Assembly: GCA_017936885.1 (NCBI GenBank) | Contig: JAGBEO010000019.1 | Coordinates: forward strand, 1-34,973 | Length of the DNA: 34,973 nt | Source: Lachnospiraceae bacterium | Lineage (GTDB): Bacteria > Bacillota > Clostridia > Lachnospirales > Lachnospiraceae | Direction: 5' to 3' | In this document: one piece after another, positions 2,409 to 28,040 of the stretch | How the letters are laid out: the number at the start of each line of letters is the position of its first letter | Position numbering within the stretch: the first letter of the stretch is position 1 | The notes under the pieces: generated by a model | Database searches by the model: none | Told to the model about the DNA's origin: nothing | Seen by the model: the letters and a program-made list of their open reading frames with translations, nothing else | Translations under genes and position numbers: made by a program

Positions 2409-3398
2409 TTAGAAAAAATTTTTTAGTGCAGCCATACGGGAAGCTAAATCAGAATGAATGGTGATGGCGGTAACATTAGCATTTACAGAGGTCTTGTATT
2501 CTTCTGTAATTTTTTCAAATTCATGTATAAATGTTTTGATTTCTGTTTTTGAGACTTTCAGTAATTGTAAATAGTAGCATATAAGAATGATGTAATCGCC
2601 GATGGTTTTAAAATTGATATAAGGCATTCCCATTTCCATCATAAGGCATTGTTTCATCGGTTTGGAGGGGTCAATTTTTCTAAAACGGGTATCATAGATT
2701 ACATCGTTGTGGGCAATAGCGTTTCTTAAATCTTTAAGGGCATAAACATATTTGTAGAGTAATTCGAGATTTGTATCGCAAGAGAGGTTAATGCCGATTT
2801 CGCGGGATATTTTTTCACGCATATGTATGGTTAGGCAAGAAAGCAAATATCCAAAATCCCCCATAGTAAGAATCTCAAAAATTGCCCAAATGGGAACTTC
2901 ATTATAGTTTACATTATTATAAAAATGGGTGATTTTAGGGTTGTCCTTCCGGTATGCAGCGGCAATGGAATTTTGTATCGAACCCTGAAGGTTCAATTTG
3001 CTGCTCTGATATTTTTTCTTAAGATCTTCACGGGTGCCTGGCGGAGCGTTTTTATAGCTGCTGACTACTTTATCATACATATCATAGATACTATTGGAAT
3101 CTATCTCTGACATGATGGTATTTAACGCGATATTCTTTAGGGCAGTTTCAATAAACATCATTTTTCCGTATAGAAGGGATTTCAGTTTTGTGTCATATTG
3201 TATCGTTGCGTTGATTTCACTATAGGCAGTAAAAGGAAGGCGGTTTGAAGATGAAAGAAAAAAGCGATATCCCTTGTAACCATGAAAATCCCCTGTATTG
3301 ATTAACTGTTGTTTTTGAGAAGTACCGGAAATGGCGATTCCATCTTTTTGAAGATGCTTTAATAAGTCATCAACTGACTTGTAATCTGTATTTGGCAT
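2409..3398 (-). CDS. Abi family (Abi_2, AbiD/AbiF-like) HEPN protein
   Basis: A 329-aa protein with the layout of the Abi_2 abortive-infection family. Key evidence is RNAIAHN at 225-231, an R-x4-H HEPN ribonuclease motif, after a long helical domain that includes an ETALKN segment near 84-89. HEPN proteins of this type are expected to cleave RNA when triggered, in known cases stopping phage growth. The ATG has an AGGAG site just upstream and its own promoter (3430-3458), divergent from valS. Its AT-rich sequence and minus orientation differ from the neighbouring housekeeping genes, which suggests acquisition. No second protein component is next to it. The trigger and target are unknown. Family assignment is good; AbiD versus AbiF subtype is not settled. 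Confidence 0.85.
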   Translation of the reverse strand: MPNTDYKSVDDLLKHLQKDGIAISGTSQKQQLINTGDFHGYKGYRFFLSSSNRLPFTAYSEINATIQYDTKLKSLLYGKMMFIETALKNIALNTIMSEIDSNSIYDMYDKVVSSYKNAPPGTREDLKKKYQSSKLNLQGSIQNSIAAAYRKDNPKITHFYNNVNYNEVPIWAIFEILTMGDFGYLLSCLTIHMREKISREIGINLSCDTNLELLYKYVYALKDLRNAIAHNDVIYDTRFRKIDPSKPMKQCLMMEMGMPYINFKTIGDYIILICYYLQLLKVSKTEIKTFIHEFEKITEEYKTSVNANVTAITIHSDLASRMAALKNFF

Positions 3399-21771: not shown

Positions 21772-22746
21772 ATGATAAAAATTGATTTGATCACCGGATT
21801 TCTGGGCTCCGGTAAGACAACTTTCTTAAAGAAATATGCGAAGTATCTGTTGGAACAGGGACAAAGAATCTGTATTCTTGAGAATGATTTCGGCGCAGTC
21901 AATGTAGACATGCTGCTGTTGCAGGATATTATGGGTGAAAATTGTGAACTGGAAATGGTAGCCGGAGGGTGTGATGCGGACTGCCATAAGAGACGTTTTA
22001 AGACGAAACTGATTTCTATGGGGATGCGGGGATTTGACCGGGTTCTCATAGAACCGTCAGGGATTTTTGATGTGGACGAATTCTTTGACTCTTTACATGA
22101 GGAACCTCTGGACCGCTGGTATGAAATCGGTAACGTGATTGCAATCGTGGATGCCCGGCTGGAACCGGAGCTGTCAGAGGAATCGGAGTATCTTCTGGCA
22201 TCGCAGGTGGCCGGTGCAGGGCAGATTGTACTGAGCAAGTCTCAGGAAGCCAGTCAGGAAGATGTGGCCGGGACTGCGGCGCGCTTAAACAGAGTGATGG
22301 AAGCTTTTCAGTGCCCGCGCAGATTTACGATAGAGCAGGATATGATCGTTAAAGACTGGGCGGAACTGACGGAAGAAGATTATAAGAGGCTTTCAGGCTG
22401 CGGATATGTGTCAGAAAATTATCGGAAGCTTTGGTTTGACCAGAGAGAAGCCTTTCATTCCGTTTATTATATGCATGTGCGTATGACGAGAGAAAAACTG
22501 CGGGAGACGGCAGAAATGCTGCTGCAGGATAAGGCCTGCGGAACTATTTTCCGAATCAAAGGATTTATGATGGAAGCGGAGAATCGGTGGATAGAGCTAA
22601 ATGCCGTTCGGGGAGACATTTCGCTGCAGCCGATTGAGAAAGGTCAGGAAGTATTGATTGTGATTGGGGAAGGATTAGCCAAGAACGCTATCGATCCCTA
22701 TTTTGTACCTTATATTGTGGAAGAAGGAACAGTATGCGCAGAGTAA
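21772..22746 (+). CDS. CobW/COG0523-family GTPase, metal chaperone-like
   Basis: A 324-aa G3E-family GTPase. Walker A is GFLGSGKTT at 9-17, Walker B region ENDFGAVNVD, and the switch region RVLIEPSGIFD near 90-100. The metal-binding site, normally CxCC, is GGCDADCHKR with Cys67 and Cys71 (C-x3-C). The canonical NKxD guanine motif seems replaced by LSKSQEA. A short CobW C-terminal domain follows. Family members insert or deliver metals, cobalt in the CobW case. Placement directly before cbiG, overlapping it by 13 nt, suggests a role in cobalt handling. The preceding gap (21667-21771) is A-rich with repeated ACAGAAATA words. Confidence 0.83.
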   Translation: MIKIDLITGFLGSGKTTFLKKYAKYLLEQGQRICILENDFGAVNVDMLLLQDIMGENCELEMVAGGCDADCHKRRFKTKLISMGMRGFDRVLIEPSGIFDVDEFFDSLHEEPLDRWYEIGNVIAIVDARLEPELSEESEYLLASQVAGAGQIVLSKSQEASQEDVAGTAARLNRVMEAFQCPRRFTIEQDMIVKDWAELTEEDYKRLSGCGYVSENYRKLWFDQREAFHSVYYMHVRMTREKLRETAEMLLQDKACGTIFRIKGFMMEAENRWIELNAVRGDISLQPIEKGQEVLIVIGEGLAKNAIDPYFVPYIVEEGTVCAE

Positions 22747-23987
22747 TCATTCTTTCCTACACGGAGGCAGGAAAACAATTAAATAAAAAGGTAACAGATT
22801 ATTTCGTGAAAAAAGGCGACGTTTTAGTCTCATGCTGTTATGGTCGTGCGCGTGGTTTTCTGTCAGTTGATTCTGATGCGGATGGGGCGATTGATGGGAT
22901 GGATTTTATGTCAACCGATGAGTTGCTGCAGCAGGAATGGTGCAGAACGGATGCTTTTGTGTTTATCGGAGCAATGGGGATTGCCGTGCGCCATGTGGCA
23001 CCTTTTCTGGAAAGTAAGGTGCATGATCCTGCGGTACTGGTTCTGGATGAAAAGGGACAATTCGTGATACCTGTGGTGTCCGGACATATCGGCGGGGGTG
23101 TTACGCTGGCGCGGGAACTGGCAGCAGTAACCGGAGGACAAGCGGTGATTACCACAGCGACGGATGTGGAAGAACGGTTCGCGGTGGATGTGTTTGCCGG
23201 GCGAAATCATTTTTGGATCGAGAATCCGAGTAGCATTAAAAACGTATCTGCGGCGCTTTTGCAAGGCAGGACGGTGGATGTGTGGACAAGCCTTCCTATC
23301 GGGGGTGAAGTACCGGAGGGGCTGCGGGTATTGCACTTGGAAGGAATAAGTTTGAAGGATTTACTGGGATGGGAAGAAATATCGGCGGAAGCGCCGGAAC
23401 AGGGAAGGATATTGAAAGAGCTGCCGATGCAGGAAGCCGGGACACGGAAGACCGCAGCACATGCGGCTATCACCATAGGAGTGCCGCTGTGGGAGCGGGA
23501 ACGCATTTACGAATATTATGGTTCTTCACAGGTATGTGTCCTCAAGCCGCGGCAATATATTCTCGGTATAGGCTGTAAAAAGGGCAAAACTGCAGAAGAA
23601 TTGGAAGTTTTTTTGCGGCAGATTTGTGACAGAGTAAAAATAGATATTCATGAGATCGGAGCCATTGCCTCTATCGATGTGAAAAAAGAGGAACCCGGTA
23701 TCTGGGAATTATCCCGCAGGCTTAGGGCAGAATTTGAAGTATTTTCTGCTGAGGAACTGGCGCAGGTGGAAGAAGCAGTAACGACATCTGATTTTGTGAA
23801 AGAAACCGTAGGCGTGGATAATGTCTGTGAGCGGAGCGCTTACTGTCTTGCCAAACGATGGATGTGTGAAGATGGATTGACGGAATGCGGGCGGCAGGAG
23901 GAAAAATATAGTCTGATATTGGGAAAACAGGCTCAGGATGGCATGACCATGGCGATTGTGAAAGTTATTCCGCGGGTTGGATGGTAA
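22734..23987 (+). CDS. cbiG: Cobalt-precorrin-5A hydrolase CbiG
   Basis: CbiG opens the lactone of cobalt-precorrin-5A and releases acetaldehyde, the ring-contraction step before CbiD. The 417-aa protein has the N-terminal domain with FIGAMGIAVRHVAPFLESK and VVSGHIGGG, a variable middle domain, and a C-terminal domain starting ILGIGCKKGKTAEE with IHEIGAIASIDVKKEE. All three are typical. A hydrophilic linker lies near 215-245. The start overlaps the cobW-like gene. Three nucleotides after the stop begins the two-hairpin element at 23990. Confidence 0.95.
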   Translation: MRRVIILSYTEAGKQLNKKVTDYFVKKGDVLVSCCYGRARGFLSVDSDADGAIDGMDFMSTDELLQQEWCRTDAFVFIGAMGIAVRHVAPFLESKVHDPAVLVLDEKGQFVIPVVSGHIGGGVTLARELAAVTGGQAVITTATDVEERFAVDVFAGRNHFWIENPSSIKNVSAALLQGRTVDVWTSLPIGGEVPEGLRVLHLEGISLKDLLGWEEISAEAPEQGRILKELPMQEAGTRKTAAHAAITIGVPLWERERIYEYYGSSQVCVLKPRQYILGIGCKKGKTAEELEVFLRQICDRVKIDIHEIGAIASIDVKKEEPGIWELSRRLRAEFEVFSAEELAQVEEAVTTSDFVKETVGVDNVCERSAYCLAKRWMCEDGLTECGRQEEKYSLILGKQAQDGMTMAIVKVIPRVGW

Positions 23988-23989
23988 AA

Positions 23990-24076
23990 GGGAATGAAGT
24001 TATACTAAGGCTGCAAAATACGCAGCCTAAGTATAACTAAATCATTCCCGGAAGAACGCAGAAGCGGCGTTCTTCC
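23990..24076 (+). repeat. Two-hairpin structured element, copy A
   Basis: Hairpin 1 (23990-24049) has an outer stem GGGAATGA/TCATTCCC and an inner 17-position stem with one A-A mismatch, a 7-nt loop AAAATAC and a 3-nt 3' bulge. Hairpin 2 (24050-24076) is a perfect 10-bp stem GGAAGAACGC/GCGTTCTTCC with loop AGAAGCG. There is no T-run. It has the same architecture as 25930-26018, with compensatory changes. It lies between cbiG and cbiH. The remaining 90 nt before cbiH show only an AAAAGGAG site. Confidence 0.85.
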
Positions 24077-24168
24077 AATGGGTGTGTTAGAAACAGTATA
24101 ATGATGGAAATAAGAGAATGGAGATACTCTGGGGTTGCAAATAGGCAGCTTAAAAAGGAGATTGAGTT

Positions 24169-24903
24169 ATGTTGACTGTAATCGGGATCGGGCCGGGGAA
24201 AAAAGATGGAATGACAATTGAAGCTTATCAGGCTTTGGAGCGAAGTGAGTGTATCGTCGGATATACGGTGTATGTGGAACAGGTGCGTGAGCTTTTTCCT
24301 GATAAGCAGTATTATACTACGCCCATGACGAAGGAAGTCGAACGGTGTGAATGGGCCATTACGCAGGCGGGAATGGGCAGAGAGATTGCTATGGTGTGCA
24401 GCGGTGACAGCGGCGTATATGGCATGGCGGGATTGATCTGTGAACTGGCAGATGATACTCTGGAACTGGAAATTCTGCCGGGGGTAACCGCAGCGTGCAG
24501 CGGAGCGTCTGTGCTGGGGGCACCGCTTACCCATGATTTTGCAGTGATCAGCTTAAGTGACAGGCTGACGCCATGGGATCAAATCAAACGGCGTCTGCGG
24601 GCGGTAGTGATGGGGGATTTCGTCATCTGTCTTTATAATCCGGCAAGCAAGGGGCGCCCCGATTATCTGCAAAAAGCCTGTGATATTCTGCTGGAAGAAG
24701 GGATAGATGGGGACAGAGTCTGCGGTGTTGTGCACAATATCGGAAGAGAGGGACAGAGGGCACAGATTATGACCCTGGCGAAACTGCGGGACTATCGGGC
24801 AGATATGTTTACCACTGTGTATATTGGTAATGCAATGACGAAAGAATATAACGGACGGATGGTAACACCCAGAGGATACCGCGAAGTGTATGAGAAAAAG
24901 TGA
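24169..24903 (+). CDS. cbiH: Cobalt-precorrin-3 / precorrin-3B C17-methyltransferase CbiH
   Basis: A SAM-dependent corrin methyltransferase of 244 aa, acting at C17 with ring contraction. Family segments are VIGIGPGKKDGMTIEAYQAL at the start, MVCSGDSGVYGMAGL, LPGVTAACSGASVLGAPLTH and DFVICLYNPASKGRP. AAAAGGAG lies 8 nt before the ATG. It is separated from cbiG by the two-hairpin element and from cbiJ by about 57 nt. Confidence 0.95.
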   Translation: MLTVIGIGPGKKDGMTIEAYQALERSECIVGYTVYVEQVRELFPDKQYYTTPMTKEVERCEWAITQAGMGREIAMVCSGDSGVYGMAGLICELADDTLELEILPGVTAACSGASVLGAPLTHDFAVISLSDRLTPWDQIKRRLRAVVMGDFVICLYNPASKGRPDYLQKACDILLEEGIDGDRVCGVVHNIGREGQRAQIMTLAKLRDYRADMFTTVYIGNAMTKEYNGRMVTPRGYREVYEKK

Positions 24904-24960
24904 TGTATAGAGCAATGGTGAGACAAAGCAGTATCAAAAGAAGTATATAGGAAGAAAGAG

Positions 24961-25953
24961 ATGGGACAGACAGGGAACAGGAAATGTGTCGTATTTGCCG
25001 GTACAAGTGAGGGAAGGCAGCTTTATGAATTCTGTGCAGAGAATAGGATAGATGCCGTATTCTGTGTGGCAACGGAATATGGGAAAAACGTATTATGTAA
25101 ACTAAATGATGCGAAGTGCTATATGCAGGGAAAATTAGACAGACAGCAGAAAGAGTCTGAACCGGAAAGCCGATTTTGGCAGGAAGCGGTAAGAAAACGG
25201 GAAGAAGGCAGGATAGAAGCGCGGAATATGCTGCCGGGAATAGAGATTCATGTAGGGAGAATGGATAAGGATGAGATGACAGCCTTTTTGCGGCAGGAAA
25301 CGCCGGAACTGATCATTGATGCGACCCATCCGTATGCGACAGAGGTTACTGAGAATATACGAAATGCTGCCGAAGCGTATCGAAAGGAACAGAACATAGA
25401 AAATCCGGTATATTACAGAGTATTGCGGAATCTGACAGATGAAGGGACATCGGCAGATACAGTGAGGAAAGCGGAGTTGGGAACAGAAGCAGATACAGCG
25501 GGAAAAGCTGATACAAAGATCAGTTATCATGAAAATATTCGTCAGGCGGTCGCTTACCTGCAATCTACGGAAGGCAATATTTTTGCCACCACGGGCAGTA
25601 AACAGGCGGGAGAATTATGTAAACTAAAGAACTTCGAAAAGAGAGTGTACCTGAGGATACTGCCCAACGTGGAAATGTTGTCTAAGTGTCTGGAACTTGG
25701 TTTTTTGCCGGATCATATGATTTGTATGCAGGGCCCCTTTTCCGAAGAACTCAATGAAGTGATGCTGCGGGAGCATGATATTAAGTATCTGCTGACCAAG
25801 CAGTCCGGTGAGACGGGCGGCTATCCGGAGAAGGTAAAGGCGGCCCGCGCATGTGGAGCAGAACTGGTGGTGCTTATACCGCCGCAGGAAAAAGAGGGTG
25901 TAAGCGTGGAGCAGATGTGTGAGATCATAGGGCATGAAGTAATACTAAGATAG
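24961..25953 (+). CDS. cbiJ: Cobalt-precorrin-6A reductase CbiJ
   Basis: An NADH/NADPH-dependent reductase of the cobalamin ring, 330 aa, longer than the roughly 250-aa norm. The N-terminus CVVFAGTSEGRQLYEF and the segments IDATHPYATEVTENI, FATTGSKQAGELCKL and DHMICMQGPFSEELN are typical. The extra length lies in two hydrophilic insertions, about 48-88 and 160-185. Two copies of ATTATGTAAACT occur (25092 and 25614), both coding LCKL; the first marks the start of the first insertion. The last seven codons and the stop are part of the hairpin element at 25930, so the tail GHEVILR may be an acquired C-terminus. Confidence 0.93.
   Translation: MGQTGNRKCVVFAGTSEGRQLYEFCAENRIDAVFCVATEYGKNVLCKLNDAKCYMQGKLDRQQKESEPESRFWQEAVRKREEGRIEARNMLPGIEIHVGRMDKDEMTAFLRQETPELIIDATHPYATEVTENIRNAAEAYRKEQNIENPVYYRVLRNLTDEGTSADTVRKAELGTEADTAGKADTKISYHENIRQAVAYLQSTEGNIFATTGSKQAGELCKLKNFEKRVYLRILPNVEMLSKCLELGFLPDHMICMQGPFSEELNEVMLREHDIKYLLTKQSGETGGYPEKVKAARACGAELVVLIPPQEKEGVSVEQMCEIIGHEVILR
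25092..25103 (+). repeat. ATTATGTAAACT word in cbiJ (first)
   Basis: Exact 12-mer coding V-LCKL-N at the beginning of the first hydrophilic insertion of CbiJ. Confidence 0.7.
25614..25625 (+). repeat. ATTATGTAAACT word in cbiJ (second)
   Basis: Exact 12-mer coding E-LCKL-K, 522 nt after the first copy (174 codons) and in the same frame. Confidence 0.7.
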
Positions 25954-26018
25954 CAAAGTACGCAATCTAAGTATTACTATATCATGCCCGGAAGAATGCC
26001 AAAAGCAGGCATTCTTCC
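25930..26018 (+). repeat. Two-hairpin structured element, copy B
   Basis: Hairpin 1 (25930-25989) has the outer stem GGGCATGA/TCATGCCC and an inner stem with two A-A mismatches, loop AAAGTAC and bulge ATA. Hairpin 2 (25990-26018) is an 11-bp stem GGAAGAATGCC/GGCATTCTTCC with loop AAAAGCA. Against copy A, four base pairs in hairpin 1 and one in hairpin 2 change on both sides and keep pairing. The 5' part overlaps the 3' end of cbiJ and carries its stop codon. Confidence 0.85.
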
Positions 26019-26078
26019 CAAAAAGTTTGTGCTGCTGAGAGGTGCGGCCGGAAATGTGAATGATGTGAGGATGTAGGT

Positions 26079-27494
26079 TTGAATAGAAAAGAGCATGTGA
26101 TCAAAGAAGTTTACCCGGATTCTATCGCGCAGGAGATGGGAATTGAGCCGGGGGATGTGCTTCTTGCAATCAATGACAATGAAATAGGGGATGTATTCGA
26201 CTATCGGTATCTGATCAAGGATGAGTATGTGGAAGTGCTGATTCGTAAGTCGGACGGCGAGGAATGGCTTCTGGAGATCGATAAGGAGTATGATGACGAT
26301 CTGGGCGTAACCTTTGAAAATGAGTTGATGAGCGATTACCGTTCCTGCAGCAACAAATGTATTTTCTGTTTTATTGACCAGATGCCGCCGGGGATGCGTG
26401 ATAATCTGTATTTTAAAGATGATGATTCCAGACTTTCCTTTTTACAGGGCAATTATATCACCCTGACGAATATGTCCGATCAGGATGTGGAGCGAATCAT
26501 TAAGATGCAGCTTGCGCCTATCAATATTTCCGTGCAGACTACGAATCCGGCGCTTCGCTGTAAGATGCTGAATAACCGGTTTGCAGGGGAAAAGTTGAAA
26601 TTTTTGGACAGGCTTTATGAGGGGCATGTGGAAATGAATGGGCAGATCGTGTGCTGCAAAGGGGTAAATGATGGAGAGGAACTTCGGCGCAGTATTACGG
26701 ATCTGATGAAATATCTGCCTTTTATGCGGAGCGTGTCGGTGGTGCCTGCGGGAATTACCAAGTACAGGGAAGGCTTGTATCCCATCCCTCTTTTTACCAA
26801 AGAAGAGGCGGGCGAGATCATAGATATGATTGAAAGTTATCAACCGGAGTGTTTTGAGCGGTACGGTCTGCATTTTATCCATGCCAGTGACGAGTTCTAT
26901 ATCACGGCAGAGCGGGATTTCCCGGAAGAAGAACGGTATGACGGTTATATCCAGTTGGAAAACGGCGTGGGTATGATGCGCTTGTTTCGGACAGAGTTTG
27001 CGGAGGCGTTTGCGGCAGCTACACACGGCATGAAATACCATGTTCAGAAACATAAATTAAAGAGGGCGTTAACTGTAGTGACCGGAAAACTGGCATATTC
27101 CACGGTGCATGAATTTGCAAGGCAGATGATGCAGGCTTATCCGGGGCTTACGATTCAGACCTTTGCCATCCGCAATGATTTTTTCGGAGAGACGATTACG
27201 GTAACAGGGTTGATTACGGGGCAGGATCTGATCGCACAGTTAAAAGAGCAGCAGGACAAGGGCGTTGATCTGGGGGATACGCTTATGATCTCTGCCACCA
27301 TGCTTCGAAGCGGGGAGCTGGTTTTCTTAGATGATGTGACGATACCGCAGGTAGAAGAGGTGTTGGGACTTCGGGTTGTTGTCGTGGAGTCTGCCGGTCA
27401 GGATTTCGTAGATGCTATCCTGCATCGGGATTATTGTATGGAGCGGGCGAATGAGAATTTTGTTTATGTGCAGGCGTATGAGCGGGATAAGTAG
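26079..27494 (+). CDS. DUF512 protein with PDZ and radical-SAM-like cluster motif
   Basis: A 471-aa protein. A PDZ-like domain covers about 1-65 (VYPDSIAQEMGIEPGDVLLA). Cysteines 90, 94 and 97 form C-x3-C-x2-C within CSNKCIFCFIDQMPPGMRD, the spacing of radical SAM [4Fe-4S] sites, and the DUF512 domain fills the C-terminal half. Biochemical function is unknown to me. The start is a TTG at 26079; GTG 26097 is an alternative. It follows copy B of the hairpin element and precedes the toxin-antitoxin-like pair. Relatives are found away from cobalamin genes, so the placement need not mean a cobalamin role. Confidence 0.85.
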   Translation: MNRKEHVIKEVYPDSIAQEMGIEPGDVLLAINDNEIGDVFDYRYLIKDEYVEVLIRKSDGEEWLLEIDKEYDDDLGVTFENELMSDYRSCSNKCIFCFIDQMPPGMRDNLYFKDDDSRLSFLQGNYITLTNMSDQDVERIIKMQLAPINISVQTTNPALRCKMLNNRFAGEKLKFLDRLYEGHVEMNGQIVCCKGVNDGEELRRSITDLMKYLPFMRSVSVVPAGITKYREGLYPIPLFTKEEAGEIIDMIESYQPECFERYGLHFIHASDEFYITAERDFPEEERYDGYIQLENGVGMMRLFRTEFAEAFAAATHGMKYHVQKHKLKRALTVVTGKLAYSTVHEFARQMMQAYPGLTIQTFAIRNDFFGETITVTGLITGQDLIAQLKEQQDKGVDLGDTLMISATMLRSGELVFLDDVTIPQVEEVLGLRVVVVESAGQDFVDAILHRDYCMERANENFVYVQAYERDK

Positions 27495-27566: not shown

Positions 27567-28040
27567 ATGATTTTATATCATGCAAGTAAGGAAATTGTAG
27601 AATTTCCGGAGATCAGAAAAACCCGGTATACGAAGGATTTTTCATGGGGATTTTATTGTACAAACAGTTGGGAGCAGGCGGTTCGCTGGGCTAATCGTGG
27701 TATTGGAGAACCAGTGGTGAATTTTTATTTATATGAACCCTTAGATACGTTGTCAATACTGAGGTATGAAAAGATGACAGATGAGTGGCTGGATTTTATC
27801 GCAAAATGTAGGAATGGAGAGACACATTCATATGATATTGTTGAGGGACCAATGGCAAATGATACGGTTTGGAATTATGTAAATGACTTTTTGGCTGGAA
27901 ATATAACCCGAAAACAGTTTTGGACATTGGCTGAGTTTAAGCATCCGACTCATCAGATTAGTTTTCATACATTGTCTGCACTTAATTGTCTGAAATTTGA
28001 AAGGAGTGAAGTGGTTTATGATAACGAAAGAGAAAAATGA
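27567..28040 (+). CDS. DUF3990 protein, putative ADP-ribosyltransferase-type toxin
   Basis: A 157-aa protein with the DUF3990 pattern: LYHASKEIVEFPEI, then TKDFSWGFYCTNSWEQAVRWA, and a DTVWNYVNDF segment. The family resembles the ADP-ribosyltransferase fold and is often paired with small partner genes as a toxin. GAAGGAG lies before the ATG. The next ORF starts inside its end (28018), typical for a toxin-antitoxin pair. Base composition is more AT-rich than the flanking cobalamin genes, indicating insertion. Enzyme activity is not demonstrated by the sequence. Confidence 0.75.
   Translation: MILYHASKEIVEFPEIRKTRYTKDFSWGFYCTNSWEQAVRWANRGIGEPVVNFYLYEPLDTLSILRYEKMTDEWLDFIAKCRNGETHSYDIVEGPMANDTVWNYVNDFLAGNITRKQFWTLAEFKHPTHQISFHTLSALNCLKFERSEVVYDNEREK

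Follow-up and report, generated by a model that had tools for sequence, protein, structure and literature searches.

The window, the whole 34,973-nucleotide stretch of Lachnospiraceae DNA analyzed here, contains plus-strand cobalamin genes among which lie two copies of a structured repeat. The upstream gene is cbiG (22734–23987), an ORF with the Pfam domains CbiG_N, CbiG_mid, and CbiG_C that ends in a TAA stop codon at 23985–23987. Copy 1 occupies 23990–24076 and consists of hairpin 1 (23990–24049; fold and covariation) and hairpin 2 (24050–24076; fold and covariation). Between the copies lies cobJ/cbiH (24169–24903), assigned to precorrin-3B C17-methyltransferase by a TIGR01466 match above cut-off and by Pfam TP_methylase. 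The cbiJ/cobK ORF (24961–25953) follows; its Pfam CbiJ/CobK match extends to residue 322 of 330, and its stop codon is at 25951–25953. Copy 2 (25930–26018) comprises hairpin 1 (25930–25989; fold) and hairpin 2 (25990–26018; fold and covariation), and it is covered by a covariance-model match of 105 bits at 25927–26019. All of these features are on the plus strand. Genes for a PDZ/radical-SAM/DUF512 protein (26079–27494) and a DUF3990 protein (27567–28040) are also found amid the cobalamin genes, and a gene for an Abi_2 family (abortive-infection-like) protein lies elsewhere in the window, at 2409–3398 on the minus strand.

An initial annotation of the window had described the two copies and their architecture, and its account was exact when the sequence was re-read and refolded. 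Both copies have the coordinates that it gave. In both folds, hairpin 1 contains an 8-bp outer stem, a 3-nt bulge on the 3' side, a 9-bp stem, an A-A mismatch, an inner stem, and a 7-nt loop, and hairpin 2 is a stem of 10 or 11 bp with a 7-nt loop. In copy 1, the mismatch is formed by two CTAAG motifs, the loop of hairpin 1 reads AAAATAC, and the stem of hairpin 2 is GGAAGAA...TTCTTCC. None of 200 dinucleotide shuffles equalled the folding energies of the copies (z = −10.4 and −11.6). The two versions of hairpin 1 differ at 11 of 60 positions, as had been reported: eight of these make up four compensated pairs, one breaks a pair, and two are changes in the loop or bulge. A fifth compensated pair, C-G to T-A, was confirmed in hairpin 2. 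No T-run follows either copy. The annotation had recognized no named RNA class, and a search of the entire window against Rfam at the gathering threshold returned no match; at a relaxed threshold, positions 23900–26100 gave a single chance match to a miRNA with an E value of 3.7.

Two features of the locus were absent from that annotation. The first stem base of copy 1 lies two spacer bases past the cbiG stop codon, and the last codons and stop codon of the cbiJ/cobK ORF fall inside copy 2. When CobK was compared by BLAST with the proteins of six relatives, homology stopped at residue 318 in one, at residue 323 in three, and at residue 327 in two. Residue 323 is encoded by the codon that immediately precedes the first stem base of copy 2. 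One of the proteins whose homology stops there, that of relative G294, continues for ten more residues. The two alignments that reach residue 327 extend four residues into copy 2, which we count against reading the element as a mobile one.

A dispersed repeat family of Lachnospiraceae

Further copies were sought by BLAST with copy 2 and then with a covariance model built from 16 copies. In the 3.57-Mb genome that contains the window, at least 52 model matches were obtained at E ≤ 1 and at least 43 at E ≤ 1e-3 when 150 of 1395 candidates were scored; of the nine weaker matches, eight fall on the opposite strand of copies already known. Among the candidates scored, matches at E ≤ 0.01 were present in at least 24 of the 25 genus genomes (this one included) and in none of 16 genomes that represent other families of this order. 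When 250 genomes were drawn across the family and 17 candidates were scored for each, at least 19 genomes, from at least 18 of 249 genera, had matches at E ≤ 1e-4. The spread across the family is thus patchy, and the count is a minimum. Genome contigs scanned for an exact pattern contained at least 117 stretches; the 80 titles listed name Lachnospiraceae or genera placed there, apart from a few that say merely bacterium or Clostridia bacterium. Two stretches came from viral contigs, and plasmid and phage collections searched with copy 2 contained no match. In the titles and abstract openings surveyed, a sample that took in few subscription journals, no such element is named.

Alignment of the copies shows what is constant. 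Conserved across copies are the pair of CTAAG motifs responsible for the A-A mismatch, the AG/CT of the junction, portions of the loop, and the first A of the bulge. An A precedes the first stem base in 96% of 233 copies, and the GGAAGAA/TTCTTCC arms of hairpin 2 are conserved within the window's own genome. Hairpins 1 and 2 are unlike in sequence and size, so that the element is not an inverted pair of like palindromes. Some variants are without the inner hairpin, and others have an additional hairpin inside the 3-nt bulge. The latter arrangement, seen in L013/L056 (G000:C29:26215-26325), L136, and L141, produces a three-way junction.

In the three best-sampled sets, copies from the same genome have identities of 0.92, 0.84, and 0.76, compared with 0.55–0.72 across genomes; the sets at 0.92 and 0.76 contain tandem copies. 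Copies from the window's own genome are mixed (0.70 within versus 0.59–0.71 across genomes, a figure that rests on 36 of 42 copies), and this counts against a mobile element. Tandem arrays with units of ~91–145 nt were observed at L098, L099, L100, L101, L175, and G052:C25:27129-27552.

Placement of copies at stop codons

The position of the copies relative to stop codons, which the initial annotation did not mention, is the main clue to their nature. The commonest arrangement is a copy that begins at a stop codon or directly behind it; in other cases, the arms of the copy themselves provide a stop. Among 230 copies, which are not independent because some occupy orthologous sites or are tandem neighbors, 98 have an upstream stop codon in the sense direction whose first base lies 1–6 nt before the helix, and in 105 a sense stop falls within the interval from −8 to +1 relative to the helix. 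The ORF ends inside the element in 59 copies and 9–36 nt upstream in 19, and for 47 there is no long ORF that ends close by. Of the 51 copies in a comparable set, several proved to be second copies in tandem arrays or to follow short genes such as rpsN. These counts leave aside one truncated match (L243), 14 of 206 matches in relatives with too little upstream sequence, one duplicate, three copies without a usable fold, and the own-genome match at C23:112762, which is next to another copy.

The placement is strongly oriented. ORF ends at the copies number 109 in the sense direction and 9 in the antisense direction; 2.3 would be expected from random positions, but since some of these fall in coding DNA, the antisense ends serve as the fairer control, and one element may be included twice in such counts. 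By a rough, ORF-based classification, stop-abutting copies form the largest class both between tandem genes (70 of 133) and between convergent genes (21 of 56). The base before the stop codon is a purine in 85% of cases versus 57% of control ORF ends, and TGA accounts for 18 of 118 stops at copies versus 387 of 1214 in controls, the controls being long ORFs of which some are perhaps spurious.

Filled and empty versions of the same site were compared in 30 of the 46 genus genomes with an S8 hit, at the rpsH and rpsN loci. The rpsH-rplF spacer contains a model match in 14 of the 30 loci, and a match lies immediately upstream of rpsH in 14 of 30, ten of which were parsed as the rpsN-rpsH spacer. 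Most of these copies start directly after the stop codon; the exceptions after rpsH are L284 and L293. S8 ends with a tryptophan followed by the stop in all 30 loci, whether the site is filled or empty. The rplE-rpsN junction measures 14 nt and has no element in all 28 loci parsed. In the rpsH and rpsN spacers, the junction on the stop side is clear, and the far side is a variable tail in which no target-site duplication could be read. At cobJ, the window copies were found in one of 30 loci examined, namely the window's own; a match in genome G313 lies ~1.1 kb upstream of cobJ, and in G294 CbiG terminates at the matching residue with the element absent.

One genome contains nine matches that are 0.92 alike, three of which form a tandem array. 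The seven genes that precede these copies encode IF-2, a PucR/CdaR-type regulator, NIF3, a GlnQ-like ATPase, PseI, FlgK, and an AraC-type regulator. For all seven, the family model ends 0–13 residues from the ORF end and is itself matched up to its last few positions (585 of 587 positions reached for IF-2, 256 of 256 for NIF3, 239 of 240 for GlnQ, 327 of 327 for PseI, 435 of 437 for FlgK, 58 of 59 for the PucR-type HTH, and 288 of 292 for AraC). Because the family models reach the gene ends, even these recent copies lie at natural C-termini. The stop codon adjoins the helix in three of the seven, and the other four ORFs end slightly further inside.

The window's own genome has six copies within ~10 kb among the genes of a ribosomal-protein operon (G000:C10:206500-226400, L086), which we take to follow rpsQ, rpsN, rpsH, adk, infA (a shortened copy), and rpsD. 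These copies also fit a function in that operon, and we count them against a mobile element.

Covariation and the nature of the pairing

The initial annotation had proposed a search with a covariance model of the two copies, in which many copies with significant covariation and no Rfam hit would support a new class, and by the shuffle tests given here the outcome was positive. Two-sided changes occur at 24 of 35 pairs in an alignment of 16 copies and at 34 of 35 pairs in one of 73 copies. With 73 copies, all five covariation measures exceed every one of 500 shuffles; with 16 copies, four of the five do so, and the fifth, the count of further pair types, was equalled by 96 of 500. Controls in which the pairing was slid along the alignment all scored lower than the true pairing.

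Folded RNA tolerates G-U pairs and not A-C pairs, whereas a DNA palindrome treats both alike. In the element, cells with G-U and A-C number 44:53 in 73 copies, 60:49 in 112, 25:35 in 40 (aligned by MAFFT only), and 8:6 in 16. Alignments A4 and A5 were fitted to the model; A3 and A6 were made by MAFFT. The control, RNase P RNA taken from 30 genomes within the genus, gave a G-U:A-C ratio of 264:13, or 77:9 when only variable pairs were counted; the RNase P pairs came from RNAalifold run on that same alignment, which favors G-U, a bias that is presumably small beside the 20-fold difference. Copies at least 80% alike gave ratios of compensated to G-U to A-C changes of 206:35:42 (of 435 pair differences) and 99:38:44 (of 237), compared with 760:579:50 for RNase P, with the qualification that pairwise counts tally shared changes repeatedly. 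Two aspects of these data count against a mobile element: the class of other changes is large (152 of 435 and 56 of 237), and compensation is weaker between closer copies (26:21:17 at 85% and 4:5:5 at 90% identity in A4; 52:14:17 and 24:6:11, respectively, in A5).

Covariation is therefore strong, yet single copies show no sign of selection on an RNA fold. The annotation had taken the paired changes as pointing to selection on the folded structure; the step from there to RNA fails since the G-U excess of RNase P is missing. It is the likelier inference that the copies from which others derive were kept complementary as DNA. Equal numbers of G-U and A-C could also reflect unselected decay after insertion, which weakens the case for a DNA hairpin and leaves the evidence firmer against RNA selection than for such a hairpin. 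Of the three candidates that had been put forward, a palindromic mobile repeat is best supported, given the missing G-U excess relative to an RNA control from the same genus. A structured RNA class as such is unsupported: neither G-U pairs in excess of A-C nor a match to an Rfam family was found. An RNA role for individual copies is possible, most of all for those in the ribosomal-protein operon. The control suggests that strong covariation alone is no proof of RNA structure, and the comparison of G-U with A-C helps to separate DNA palindromes from folded RNAs.

Candidate origins of the element

We favor, at about even chances, a REP-like nature: the element would be a non-autonomous mobile palindrome of Lachnospiraceae, ~90 bp long with two hairpins, that resides at gene ends. 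The copies are dispersed, form similar subfamilies in some genomes, occupy sites that are empty in relatives, lie at gene ends in the sense orientation, and have arms that are nearly always Watson-Crick paired, without an excess of G-U. In such a mobile palindrome, pairing would matter as a DNA hairpin, either single-stranded or in a cruciform, and a putative nuclease or recombinase would read the hairpin with the A-A mismatch as its recognition mark. Template switching during replication may help to maintain the complementarity of the arms. Insertion would prefer purine-TA-purine, as found in purine-TAA or purine-TAG stop codons, although this target signal is weak. Gene-end copies would persist because the protein's C-terminus is spared and the element brings stop codons in three frames. 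In mRNA, the result would be a strong hairpin at the stop codon that may, as with REPs, affect termination and mRNA decay as a side effect. If purine-TA-purine were the sole target, intergenic sites should be hit as well; these are seldom filled, which counts against mobility.

The Y1 transposase (PF01797) was not found in the window's own genome, which is 93.6% complete, and across 60 genomes of the genus it is missing in 36 and present in 24. Six copy-rich genomes (G001, G002, G006, G009, G013, and G016, each with at least 21–32 element matches) all lack it. These gaps led us to reject the Y1 transposase as the mover. ORFs of at least 90 codons within 3 kb of copies in relatives, or within 1.5 kb of copies in the own genome, were clustered; inspection by eye of the 28 most recurrent of 1974 clusters revealed ribosomal proteins, transporters, other cellular proteins, and unrecognized reading frames, none of them recognizable as a transposase or recombinase. 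That no mover came to light in these searches counts against mobility. No terminal inverted repeats common to the element and a known insertion sequence were found.

The closest analogs are the REP and REPIN sequences of Proteobacteria, which are moved by RAYT Y1 transposases. Like these, the element is a short, extragenic, imperfect palindrome present in many copies near stop codons and in operons, some of which overlap the last codons of an ORF. The border motif of REPs is GTAG, and the element likewise has a purine-TA-purine border beside the hairpin. It differs in its length of ~90 bp, its two dissimilar hairpins, the lack of a Y1 transposase in its own genome, and a stop-codon placement that is far tighter and restricted to the sense strand. 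MITE-type and other repeats such as ERIC and NEMIS are non-autonomous intergenic palindromes as well; unlike them, the element is anchored at stop codons. By comparison, 446 of 4,072 (~11%) REPs of Escherichia coli lie within 15 nt of a stop codon, and 260 of 496 REPs were proposed as translational regulators in an earlier study, according to PMC12306157. The element would add to the known REP-like repeats one with an unusual placement and with no mover found in the genomes searched.

A cis-acting RNA element that acts on the terminating ribosome, by slowing termination or by protecting or processing the 3' end of the upstream frame in operons, is possible and less probable than a mobile palindrome. 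Such an element would place the 5' strand of its outer 8-bp stem in the mRNA channel of the terminating ribosome, and the stem would close on release. Sense orientation and tight spacing to the stop codon favor this idea, as does the finding that the inner helix starts 9–13 nt from the first base of the stop in 85 of the 130 copies measured. So do the six copies in the ribosomal-protein operon, genes of which recur near the copies of relatives. REPs close to stop codons in E. coli are reported to stall ribosomes and to act as RNA on termination or on the decay of the mRNA (PMC12306157). Against an RNA element, G-U is no commoner than A-C even in 85 stop-abutting copies (42:39, versus 55:56 in 88 others), and related species differ in occupancy at the same gene.

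The copies might instead be neutral palindromes whose complementarity is kept solely by template switching during replication, the hairpin being recognized by no protein. In favor of this, single-sided changes are fewer than compensated ones at 80% identity and the two strands behave symmetrically, and paired changes produced by template switching have been described for RNA hairpins in PMC8794818. We nevertheless regard this explanation as improbable: correction of this type would be expected to erase the A-A mismatch and the conserved CTAAG motifs, and it explains neither the similar subfamilies nor the placement at gene ends.

The element also resembles the attC sites of integrons, on which the IntI recombinase acts: a hairpin of variable sequence with conserved unpaired bases that abuts the stop codon in the orientation of the gene. 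The core site of attC may itself contain a stop codon, as noted in PMC8876359. A structure-specific recombination site of this kind, folded from a single strand beside the stop codon of each gene, is very unlikely here. The conserved motifs are different, and the integron integrase (TIGR02249) scored above cut-off in none of the 60 genus genomes, all of which contain tyrosine recombinases below that threshold. In the loci examined, the genes ahead of the copies are resident ones, ribosomal-protein genes for example, and no cassette arrays were seen. Rho-independent terminators or attenuators are the least plausible of all: strong hairpins at gene ends would suit them, but neither window copy is followed by a T-run, the 40 nt after 231 copies show no such enrichment, and six copies lie within the ribosomal-protein operon.

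It is tempting to speculate that the element belongs to a new kind of mobile DNA-hairpin system, in which a dedicated enzyme inserts copies specifically at stop codons and gene ends are colonized harmlessly, although we consider this rather unlikely. Landing at stop codons, if true, would make insertion unusually safe, and it raises the question of how mobility at the level of DNA could sense a translational signal.

Other repeats share the sites that the element occupies. Four rpsH-rplF spacers of genus genomes (L287, L303, L307, and L310) contain dispersed-looking structured repeats (GGAGCAATAAAATCAAGC... and ACAACGAGAGATTCTCGAGTCTGGAGAATG...) near the rpsH stop codon; these repeats, which are partly tandem, may be diverged relatives of the element.
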